Below, piece by piece: positions 25,750 through 29,760 of a DNA stretch of 64,000 nt. The position numbers and the translations under genes were made by a program. The DNA is taken from assembly GCF_001049495.1 (NCBI RefSeq), contig NZ_CDWI01000011.1:868001-932000 (forward strand), written 5' to 3'. Under the pieces are notes generated by a model that did not search any database, had not been told where the DNA came from, and was given only the letters and a program-made list of their open reading frames with translations. Numbering within the stretch: position 1 is the stretch's first letter; each line of letters starts with the position of its first letter. The DNA is from Microbacterium sp. 3J1 (GTDB lineage Bacteria; Actinomycetota; Actinomycetes; Actinomycetales; Microbacteriaceae).

Positions 25750-26112
25750 ATGGCAGCGAAAGACGACTTCGGCAGGGCAGGTGAGTCCCGTGCGGTCGAG
25801 TATCTGACGGGGCGCGGATACGACATCATCGAGCGAAATTGGCGATGCCCTCAGGGTGAGATCGACATCATCGCGTCGACAGGTGCGCATCTGGCGGTGG
25901 TGGAGGTCAAGACGCGCCGTTCCTCCGCCTACGGGCACCCGTTCGAGGCAGTGGACGCCCGAAAGCTCCGCCGGCTCTGGCAGCTCGCCTTCGCCTGGGC
26001 GGCCGTCCATCCCGACGAGGTGCGCGGGCGCGACATCAGAGTCGAGGCGATCGGGATCACCGGGCCCGACCCCGCGGTCGCCGAGATCGAGCACCTCGAG
26101 GATCTGTCGTGA
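25750..26112 (+). CDS. YraN family endonuclease-like protein
   Basis: A 120-residue UPF0102/YraN protein with a restriction-endonuclease-like fold. The core is GRAGESRAVEYLTGRGYDIIERNWR, then GEIDIIAS and VVEVKTRRSSAYG, giving the E...D-ExK arrangement of PD-(D/E)XK nucleases. Cellular role is unclear; it typically sits between rnhB and the Mg-chelatase-like gene. ATG 25750 is six bases after CAGTCT. Its stop overlaps the GTG start of yifB. Confidence 0.93.
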   Translation: MAAKDDFGRAGESRAVEYLTGRGYDIIERNWRCPQGEIDIIASTGAHLAVVEVKTRRSSAYGHPFEAVDARKLRRLWQLAFAWAAVHPDEVRGRDIRVEAIGITGPDPAVAEIEHLEDLS

Positions 26113-27638
26113 AGACGGCGCGCACCTGGGCCGTAGCGCTGACGGGTGTCGACGGCCACATGGTCGAGGTCGAAGCAGACCTGTCGAATCAGACCCCGGA
26201 GTTCAAGATCATCGGCCTGCCCGACAAGTCGCTGGGCGAGGCGGTGCAGCGCGTGCACAACGCCTGCCAGAACAGTGGACTGGACCTGCCTCGGCGGCGA
26301 CTCACCGTCAATCTGTCGCCGGCCGCTCTCCCCAAGCACGGGTCGGCGTTCGACCTGAGCATCGCGGTGTCCGCCCTGGCCGCAGGTGGTGCGCTGGCGC
26401 GACGGTCGATCGCGCGCACCGTGCACGTGGGGGAACTCGGGCTCGACGGACGGGTGAGACCGGTGGCGGGCGTCCTGCCCTCGGTCTTCGCAGCGGCCAG
26501 GGCCGGTTTCGACACCGTGATCGTGCCGCACGCGAACGAGGCCGAAGCGCGGCTCGTGCCGGGCGTCGACGTGCGGGCCGCGACGACGCTGGCCCAGGTG
26601 GCCGCGTGGCACGGCGCGGACGTGGAGGTCGTGGACACGGATCCTGTCGCCGCGCCCGCCGTCGCCCTGGACCGGCCGGAGGAGCTCGACCTCGCCGACG
26701 TGGTGGGCCAGGACGAAGCCGTCGAAGCTCTGATCGTCGCTGCGGCCGGCGGGCATCACATGCTCCTCAGCGGGCCTCCGGGAGCAGGGAAGACGATGCT
26801 GGCTCGCCGACTGCCCGGCATACTTCCGCCCCTCACCGACGAGGAAGCCCTCGAAGTCGCGTCCATCCGCTCGCTGACGGGGGAGTCCGTCCGAGCGCTC
26901 GATCGCGTTCCCCCGATGGAGACCCCGCACCACAGCGCATCCGTGTCTGCGCTCGTCGGCGGTGGCTCGCGAGTCGCGAGACCCGGAGCGATCGTGCGCG
27001 CCCACCGCGGCGTGCTCTTCCTCGACGAGTCCGCCGAGTTCTCGCGGGTCGCCCTCGACGCTCTCAGGCAGCCCCTCGAATCGGGCCTGATCGAGATCAG
27101 CCGCACCGGGTTCACCGCCAGATACCCCGCGCGTTTCCAGCTCATCCTCGCGATGAATCCCTGCCCCTGTGGCAACAACGGAGTACGCGGCGCGGAGTGC
27201 GTGTGCCCGTCTCTCGCGATTCGTCGCTACGCGACGCGACTGTCAGGGCCGCTTCGCGACCGGATCGACATCGAGCTGCACGTCTCGAGGGTCTCCGCGT
27301 CTCGCGCGACGTCCGGCGGGCGCTCGGGAGTGACGAGCGACGCGGCGCGCGAACGTGTGCGCGAGGCGAGAGAGCGCGCCGCGGCACGATGGCGGGGGAG
27401 TCCGTGGCGGCGCAACGGGGAGATACCCGGCGCACGACTGCGACAGACCGACATGCGTGTGGCAGCGGACGCCCGTGCGCCCCTCGACCGAGCGCTCGAG
27501 AGAGGCGCTCTGACCCTCCGCGGCTACGACCGCGTTCTGCGCCTCGCATGGACGATGGCCGACCTCGCAGGTATCGACCGGCCGGGGCGCGAGGAGATCG
27601 GACGCGCACTGTTCCTGAAGAAGGGGTTCGCATCATGA
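26109..27638 (+). CDS. YifB/ComM family Mg-chelatase-like AAA+ ATPase
   Basis: A 509-residue AAA+ ATPase. The N-terminal Lon-like domain starts RTWAVALTGVDGHMVEVEAD; Walker A is LLSGPPGAGKTMLARRLPG near residue 220, Walker B is GVLFLDESAEF, and the C-terminal Mg_chelatase_C region is complete. The zinc-like segment NPCPCGNNGVRGAECVC is present. In naturally competent bacteria the orthologue ComM is a branch-migration helicase aiding integration of transformed DNA. It is coupled to yraN and to dprA by 4-base overlaps, so the three are one unit. Confidence 0.93.
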   Translation: MKTARTWAVALTGVDGHMVEVEADLSNQTPEFKIIGLPDKSLGEAVQRVHNACQNSGLDLPRRRLTVNLSPAALPKHGSAFDLSIAVSALAAGGALARRSIARTVHVGELGLDGRVRPVAGVLPSVFAAARAGFDTVIVPHANEAEARLVPGVDVRAATTLAQVAAWHGADVEVVDTDPVAAPAVALDRPEELDLADVVGQDEAVEALIVAAAGGHHMLLSGPPGAGKTMLARRLPGILPPLTDEEALEVASIRSLTGESVRALDRVPPMETPHHSASVSALVGGGSRVARPGAIVRAHRGVLFLDESAEFSRVALDALRQPLESGLIEISRTGFTARYPARFQLILAMNPCPCGNNGVRGAECVCPSLAIRRYATRLSGPLRDRIDIELHVSRVSASRATSGGRSGVTSDAARERVREARERAAARWRGSPWRRNGEIPGARLRQTDMRVAADARAPLDRALERGALTLRGYDRVLRLAWTMADLAGIDRPGREEIGRALFLKKGFAS

Positions 27639-28822
27639 TGGGCGCACTCTCCGGCGACGAGGGACTCACAGCCGCACTGGCGGGGGTCGGCCGGAGCGAG
27701 ATCACCGACGAGGACCTGGCGCGGGTGGCGTGGTCCGTGATCACCGAGCCGGGAGACGGAGTCGCCGGAGTGCTGATCGCCGAGCTCGGTGCTGCCGAAG
27801 CACTGCGATTCGCGTTGCGCCCAGGCTCGACGCTGCCCGCTCTCACCGCCGATCGGCGCGCCCTCAGGGAGGGGATGCGTCGGTGGAGAGCGAGAGCAGA
27901 TCCACTCGCGGTCCGTGCTGCGGTCACCGGGGCCCAGCACGTCGGCGCGCGGCTCATCCTGCCGGGCGACGCCTCCTGGCCGGAGCAGCTCGACGACCTG
28001 GGCGCCCACCGCCCGCTGGTTCTCTGGGTGAGAGGAGATGTCGCGCTGCTGCGCCGAGGACCCCGAGTGGCGATGGTGGGCGCCCGGGCGGCCAGCGGAT
28101 ACGGAGAGCTGCTCGCCGCCGAGTTCGCGGGCGACCTCGCGGCCAGCGGTGCCGTGGTCGTGTCGGGCGGCGCCTAGGGCATCGACGGCGCTGCGCATCG
28201 TGCCGCGCTGGGCGTCGGCGGGTCCACCATCGCGTTCCTCGCCGGCGGGGTCGATCGCGCGTATCCACAAGGACACCAGCAGTTGCTGCGCAGCATCGTC
28301 GAGACCGGCGCAGTGGTGAGCGAGGTGCCGTGCGGCACCGCTCCGACGAAATGGCGCTTTCTGTCGCGCAATCGACTCATCGCTGCGACGAGTCATGCGA
28401 CCGTGGTCGTCGAAGCGGGCTGGCGTAGCGGCTCGCTCAACACGGCCGGGCACGCGGCGGCTCTCGGTCGACCGCTCGGAGCGGTCCCCGGCCCGGTCAC
28501 TTCTGCGGCTTCCGCCGGATGCCATCGACTGCTGCGAGAGTACGATGCGCGGTGCGTGACGACGGCAGCGGAGATCCGGGAGCTGTGGGACGCCGGGGCC
28601 GCAGAGGGGCCTCGGCGCGAGGCACCCGTCGATCCGGAGCAGGGACGTCTTCTGGACGCGATGAGCAGCCGCGTCCCGATGCCGCTTCTCGAGCTGACCA
28701 GGCGCTCCGGTCTCGATCCCGATCGAGTGAGCGCCCTCCTCGGGCTCCTCGAGCTCGACGGTGTCGCGCGACGCGAAGAGGGCGGGTGGAGGAAGGTCGG
28801 GTCAGCTGAACGGCGAGGCTGA
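27635..28822 (+). pseudogene. dprA: dprA (DNA-processing protein) interrupted by in-frame TAG
   Basis: The frame encodes 395 codons of DprA/Smf, the RecA loader for incoming single-stranded DNA, but codon 181 (28175-28177) is TAG. It falls inside the Rossmann-fold motif: before it ...GAVVVSGGA, after it GIDGAAHRAALGVG, where related proteins carry Tyr or a similar residue in SGGAxGID. No other stop or frameshift occurs; downstream KWRFLSRNRLIAA, VVVEAGWRSGSLNTA and the C-terminal winged helix remain intact. A TAC or TAT to TAG change is the simplest cause. This is a very recent nonsense mutation, a sequencing error or, less likely, readthrough. Taken literally it yields a 180-residue fragment lacking most of the catalytic fold. 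Confidence 0.9.
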
Positions 28823-28857: not shown

Positions 28858-29760
28858 ATGGAACTCGCGGCAGCCGCTCAGTCGTTCACCGATCACCTGG
28901 ATCGCGTGCGCCGACTCTCGCCTGCAACGGTGCGCGCCTATCGCTCCGACCTTCGCGACCTGTCCGACGCCGCCCCGGGCCTCGCGCTGGATCAGGTCAC
29001 CCTGGAGACGCTCCGGGACTGGCTCTGGCGCGCGACACAGCGGGGAGACGCGCGGGCGACGCTCGCGCGCCGCGCCGCCGCCGCGCGGTCCTTCTTCGCC
29101 TGGGCGGTGGAGGAAGGGCTGATCCCCCAGGACCCGAGCTTGAGGCTCGTGGCCCCTCGCCGCGGGCGCTCTCTGCCGACGGTGGCCTCACGCGACGCGA
29201 TGATCCAGCTGCTCGATCACCAACGAGAAGCCGCCGCGGCCGGCGACCCGATCGCGTTGCGCGACCACGCGATGCTCGAACTGCTCTACGGCGCGGGGAT
29301 CCGCGTCTCGGAGCTGTGCGGGCTCGATGTCGACGACCTCGATCTCGACCGGCACACCGCCCGTGTCATGGGCAAGGGCGCAAAGGAACGGGTCGTGCCC
29401 TTCGGGCGCCCTGCCGGTGACGGGCTGGGGGCGTATCTCACTCGGGGCCGCCCCGCGCTGGTCCTGCGCGCCGCCGATCCCTCCGCAGCGCTGTTCCTCG
29501 GGGTTCGCGGTGGCCGCGTCGGGCCGCGTGCCGTCTACGCCCTCGTCGCCGATGTACTCGCTCCGGTGCTCGGGACCGAGACGGTGGGACCGCACGCTCT
29601 GCGGCACACGGCGGCCACGCACCTCCTCGACGGCGGTGCAGACCTTCGAGCGGTACAGGAGATCCTCGGGCACGCCAGCCTCGGCACGACCCAGATCTAC
29701 ACGCACGTATCGGCCGAGCGGCTCGCGGCCACCTACCGGCTCGCCCATCCACGGGCGTGA
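28858..29760 (+). CDS. xerC: tyrosine recombinase XerC
   Basis: A 300-residue tyrosine recombinase resolving chromosome dimers at dif. The N-terminal SAM-like domain covers about 1-90; catalytic residues are R149 (GAGIRVSEL), K173 (MGKGAKER), H246 and R249 (HALRHTAATH), H272 (LGHASLGTTQ) and the nucleophile Y281. Length and its place after dprA fit chromosomal XerC rather than an integrase. The partner XerD and the dif site are not in this window. Confidence 0.95.
   Translation: MELAAAAQSFTDHLDRVRRLSPATVRAYRSDLRDLSDAAPGLALDQVTLETLRDWLWRATQRGDARATLARRAAAARSFFAWAVEEGLIPQDPSLRLVAPRRGRSLPTVASRDAMIQLLDHQREAAAAGDPIALRDHAMLELLYGAGIRVSELCGLDVDDLDLDRHTARVMGKGAKERVVPFGRPAGDGLGAYLTRGRPALVLRAADPSAALFLGVRGGRVGPRAVYALVADVLAPVLGTETVGPHALRHTAATHLLDGGADLRAVQEILGHASLGTTQIYTHVSAERLAATYRLAHPRA

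Follow-up and report, generated by a model that had tools for sequence, protein, structure and literature searches.

DprA shields incoming single-stranded DNA and recruits RecA (PMC11472951, PMC4857294). Several genes of natural competence are described as targets of mobile elements, among them comK, comYC, comFA, and comM (Croucher et al. 2016, PMC4774983) and, in the pneumococcus, comYC and ssbB (PMC12637031). In the accessible sections of a survey of large serine integrases (Durrant et al. 2022, PMC10083194), 12.4% of those predicted to be site-specific target a magnesium chelatase/protease gene, which is taken here to be comM, and competence genes are enriched among integrase targets. The comM pseudogenes of Acinetobacter baumannii (PMC11472951) provide another point of reference, as there, and probably here as well, a late transformation gene has been lost in an otherwise intact genome. 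The locus that we describe differs from the available description of that system in that the gene is dprA, the lesion is one nonsense codon, the organism is a Microbacterium, and the effect on transformation is a predicted one.

The DNA analyzed is a 64,000-nucleotide stretch of the genome of Microbacterium sp. 3J1, referred to below as the window. It includes dprA, of which no second copy was found in the genome; the gene has probably been inactivated by a recent single-base nonsense mutation.

The interrupted dprA gene and its neighbors

The dprA reading frame extends from an ATG to the TGA at nucleotides 28820-28822, and TAG in the motif context VVVSGGA-stop-GIDGAAH is the sole stop within it (Table 1). 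A PF02481 profile search of the genome matched the gene over positions 5-211, with one TAG inside the match, and the score of 224.6 bits (curated cut-off 29.6) places it in the DprA family; the frame is not open across the entire domain, as it is interrupted at codon 181. If the TAG is counted as an amino acid, the identity to the DprA of Microbacterium sp. H83 (L032), the nearest relative found, extends over residues 1-388. The genome is a draft assembly of 3.40 Mb with a completeness of 100%, and the profile search of all of it produced this one match only, with no second DprA-family gene.

The gene directly upstream is comM, whose end (27638) overlaps the start of dprA (27635). The ComEC domain of the genome is encoded by an open frame without stops. 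The sequence-only reading had located a TAG at codon 181 of a 395-codon dprA between an intact comM-like gene and an intact xerC; translation and the PF02481 search led to the same codon, and both neighbors were found to include full Pfam domains.

Table 1. Features of the comM-dprA-xerC region (coordinates refer to the window)
Feature	Coordinates	Strand	Basis
comM (YifB/Mg-chelatase-like ATPase), intact	26109-27638	+	PF13541, PF01078, PF13335; TIGR00368 E=3.3e-135, no stop
dprA, interrupted frame, 395 codons	27635-28822	+	PF02481 E=1.2e-66; 78% identity to H83 DprA
Predicted truncated product, 180 residues	27635-28177	+	Translation
In-frame amber codon 181, SGGA-stop-GID	28175-28177	+	Sequence and translation
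Possible C-terminal piece, 179 residues, from TTG	28283-28822	+	In-frame start list and upstream bases
F-L-S-R codons of RFLSRNR, counterpart of the insertion point in relatives	28358-28369	+	Window sequence and L219-L223 junctions
xerC-like tyrosine recombinase, intact	28858-29760	+	PF00589, PF02899

Origin of the amber codon

The position of the amber codon is occupied by Tyr in all 139 loci of relatives (TAC in 128 and TAT in 11), which consist of three sets, L002-L031, L032-L111, and L113-L141, with some genomes present in two of them. The motif was matched 40 more times in the other loci fetched; these matches, which include some second genes or chance matches, have Tyr (34), Val (3), Phe (2), or Trp (1) at this position and never a stop. 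In the family search of 366 genomes, the present genome (G000) was the sole one with an internal stop among the matches listed, at least about 150. Two groups of candidates for a shared stop were considered and rejected: the single TAG recorded for each of G046 and G123 lies close to a contig start and precedes the conserved GARAAT part, and the two genomes have Tyr at the position in question, while the stops in G113, G252, G273, G288, G293, and G338 were reported within C-terminal pieces of split dprA copies.

The rest of the gene bears no sign of decay. The dN/dS ratio with respect to H83 was 0.181 before the stop and 0.137 after it. This genome has kept all columns that do not vary among 34 other taxa, both before (0/14 changed) and after the stop (0/79 changed). 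In the same test, each of the other taxa had between 0 and 3 changes in the part after the stop, and 0 or 1 in the part before it, with one outlier of 18. A single stop with a conserved remainder fits a recent nonsense pseudogene. In relative-rate counts for the part after the stop, 23 of 33 outgroups were more distant from this genome than from H83, with nearly equal means (0.191 and 0.185), and these counts indicate no clear relaxation, a result to be expected of a very recent loss, but also of a dprA gene that was never lost. The TAG forms the tetramer CTAG, of which the window has 9 copies where 60 are expected from dinucleotide shuffles and 36 from trinucleotide counts; this rarity fits a newly arisen change, and also an error. 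Besides the strong depletion of CTAG, TTAA is absent from the window. As the remainder of dprA is intact and the relatives have Tyr, the lesion is either very recent or an error. These data agree with the sequence-only reading, which had expected Tyr in SGGAxGID and had described an isolated lesion with an intact downstream part.

If the TAG were an artefact of sequencing, assembly, or culture, the real codon of the strain would be a sense codon and dprA would be intact. This is the less probable explanation but one that deserves serious consideration, since an isolated base-call error would give an identical picture: one base only is affected, everything else in dprA is conserved, the assembly is a draft in 30 contigs, and the change produces an avoided tetramer. 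Two surveys of the same assembly argue against it. A scan of 304 kb (the window and 240 kb from other stretches) for stops flanked on both sides by coding-like sequence, to which frameshifts are invisible, yielded eight candidates, and the dprA stop was the only one that we judged to cut a coding frame; of the others, five were set aside as the ends of genes, with another start or gene behind them, and two as weak or antisense. When the window was compared with 50 kb of H83, which span it from its start to about 46 kb only, stops were found in 11 of the 38 matched ORFs, dprA included; the other ten were judged antisense or upstream-extended on the basis of codon-position GC and the window ORFs, and over this distance no gene judged real, other than dprA, contained a stop. 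A codon-score profile agrees for the two least clear of the ten: it places the coding signal of h85 on the opposite strand, and in h84 it shows a frame change in H83 and a continuous frame in the window. The absence of other stops judged to cut a gene indicates that the error rate is not high. The TAG base is probably present in the chromosome. A separate observation concerns H83 itself (L251, G186:C1 ~28200-28350; G186 is taken to be the H83 genome), which may contain a frameshift, as its coding signal switches frame there and that of the corresponding window sequence does not.

Predicted consequences of the stop

With a nonsense mutation at this position, residue 180 would be the last one translated; the protein would end within the nucleotide-binding fold and lack both the remainder of that fold and the C-terminal part. 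The 180-residue product, which we take to consist of the N-terminal part and the first half of the nucleotide-fold domain, is presumably inactive, making the gene a dprA null. The likely consequence would be the loss of the protection of incoming single-stranded DNA by DprA and of the recruitment of RecA. Given this known role of DprA, transformation dependent on it would be lost, if the strain carries it out at all.

Production of full-length DprA by readthrough or suppression of the amber codon would be in line with the purifying selection on the part downstream of it (dN/dS 0.137), but we consider such a bypass very improbable because no tRNA reading UAG was found, release factor 1 is intact, TAG ends other likely genes, and the search gave no second DprA gene. 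Among the 45 tRNA genes identified with Rfam, to each of which ARAGORN assigned an anticodon (30 + 15 loci), none has the anticodon CUA. The release factor 1 gene is present without stops, and the 35 window ORFs that passed a codon-position GC filter end in TGA (29), TAG (4), or TAA (2), on which grounds a genome-wide reassignment of TAG was also rejected. A backup copy of DprA was rejected as well, none having been found in the genome. Recoding would be expected to leave a stop conserved at this site, and in the 139 loci of relatives there is none. The sequence-only reading had offered very recent loss, a base-call error, or bypass; the first two both fit the data and the third is disfavored, the search for amber-suppressor tRNAs that it had proposed having been negative for these 45 tRNAs.

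The protein could also be made as two working pieces, the 180-residue fragment and a C-terminal piece reinitiated at the TTG at 28283 or at a later start. In-frame starts do exist downstream, and a Shine-Dalgarno-like AAGGA is located about 9 bases before this TTG; however, the TTG is the first start available and lies 36 codons past the amber, and neither piece would contain residues 182-216, a segment opening with the conserved GIDGAAHRAAL, which makes this arrangement very improbable as well. The amber codon is best regarded as an ordinary, probably recent loss-of-function change. If it is real, it makes the strain a naturally occurring dprA null in which comM and the ComEC domain are intact, useful for studying the role of DprA in an actinobacterium.

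Disruption of dprA and comM in Microbacterium

A PF02481 match was detected in 359 of the 366 Microbacterium genomes (G000 included), and 42 genomes with weak or absent family matches or with weak DNA matches (29 + 13) were inspected more closely. The counts of broken dprA genes that follow are lower bounds, since a second DprA-family gene can mask a broken copy, and they refer to genomes and not to independent events on a tree. In nine of the 366 genomes (G113, G111, G067, G027, G293, G338, G273, G252, and G230) the two halves of dprA are 4.7 to 19.9 kb apart, and all nine are split at one place, within a few residues, in the motif RFLxRNR; the junction sequences were viewed for the first four of them. 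Three more genomes fit the same split: G001, in which the left part alone was found within 38 kb and by the family search, and G170 and G103, in which the contig ends at the RFLxRNR site. The split loci, all from relatives and not from the window, are L219, L220, L221, L223, L235, L236+L237, L238, L239, and L240. A connection between the amber codon and this insertion site was considered and rejected: the site is about 60 codons downstream of the amber, and in the window dprA it is uninterrupted between RFL and SRNR, so that this copy has not been disrupted by a mobile element.

Frameshift-like splits of dprA were found in ten genomes (G083, G091, G165, G299, G365, G288, G308, G302, G334, and G055), some of which may be assembly errors, G091 and G308 being 68% and 76% complete, respectively. 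As their locations vary, they have the appearance of ordinary indels or of errors in assembly, and a programmed frameshift was therefore rejected. The gene is incomplete in other ways in G213 and G335 and is cut by contig ends in G046, G123, G150, and G162. In G335 (C1:3197115-3206514) the match to comM and that to dprA are separated by about 7.4 kb, and the dprA match is without its 5' part, which makes it likely that this part of the gene contains a further insertion point. The single-contig genome G304 has no DprA match and has comM in three frame-shifted pieces, the operon appearing decayed. With inserts in 9 of the 366 genomes and frameshift-like splits in 10, the loss of dprA appears to be tolerated in the genus.

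A serine recombinase match was found in eight of the nine dprA inserts, the model having been built from seven of them, which match by construction, and the Pfam Resolvase and Recombinase domains are present in all five inserts scanned (L219, L220, L238, L239, and L240). The recombinase of L219 has 38% identity with a serine integrase from Arthrobacter phage Soondubu; its identity with the product of a Microbacterium phage Percival gene, annotated as a serine recombinase, is 32%. The L220 insert, which includes terminase and capsid genes, looks like a small prophage; Microbacterium phages are described as mostly lytic (Jacobs-Sera et al. 2020). The ninth insert (G027) includes a tyrosine recombinase and a Fic protein, and that of L235 includes a GmrSD-like gene, whose best PADLOC score is for NsnA, beside a HEPN protein. 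L223 and L235 are two shorter inserts with defence-like genes (Fic and GmrSD/NsnA-like, respectively), and no phage structural genes were recognized among the few proteins scanned from these two.

As a control, comM was searched in the same 366 genomes with TIGR00368; 32 weak matches were examined, and 3 near-zero matches and 4 genomes without a match were left aside. The gene was found split, with both halves identified, in 23 of the 366 genomes, at three points, near positions 78 (3 genomes), 305 (11), and 343 (9), the halves being on different contigs in three of the 23 (G313, G129, and G271). All eight splits that were fetched (L254-L261) hold, six of them with a serine recombinase match. 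As comM is itself split, it does not represent an untouched control. Frameshift-like lesions were found in comM of four genomes (G256, G308, G304, and G170) vs ten for dprA, an excess in dprA when weighted by length (p=0.0016) that is not clear in the unweighted comparison (p=0.09). One could speculate, although we regard the idea as rather doubtful, that the comM-dprA operon undergoes repeated selected inactivation in Microbacterium under a pressure against the uptake and recombination of foreign DNA: elements bearing differing recombinases would enter it at four or more fixed sites (three in comM and one in dprA), with the frameshifts and the amber codon as their point-mutation counterpart.

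In the accessible parts of the sources, dprA is not named as a target gene in PMC12637031 or by Durrant et al. (PMC10083194), and within the main text of PMC4774983 it occurs only in the reference list; literature searches joining dprA with serine integrase and prophage, or with attB and Microbacterium, gave no match. The inserts of the relatives do share their recombinase class with the integrases surveyed by Durrant et al., and also their target if the magnesium chelatase/protease gene is comM. Since competence genes are already known as targets of mobile elements, the comM and dprA inserts can be considered further cases of this targeting. Like the genes described by Croucher et al. (2016), dprA and comM in the Microbacterium relatives are interrupted at fixed points, and most of the interrupting elements include a recombinase, whereas the lesion in the window is a point mutation and not an insert. 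In Microbacterium, the comM-dprA operon is in this respect a place where mobile elements land recurrently, and this extends the known conflict between transformation and such elements to this genus.
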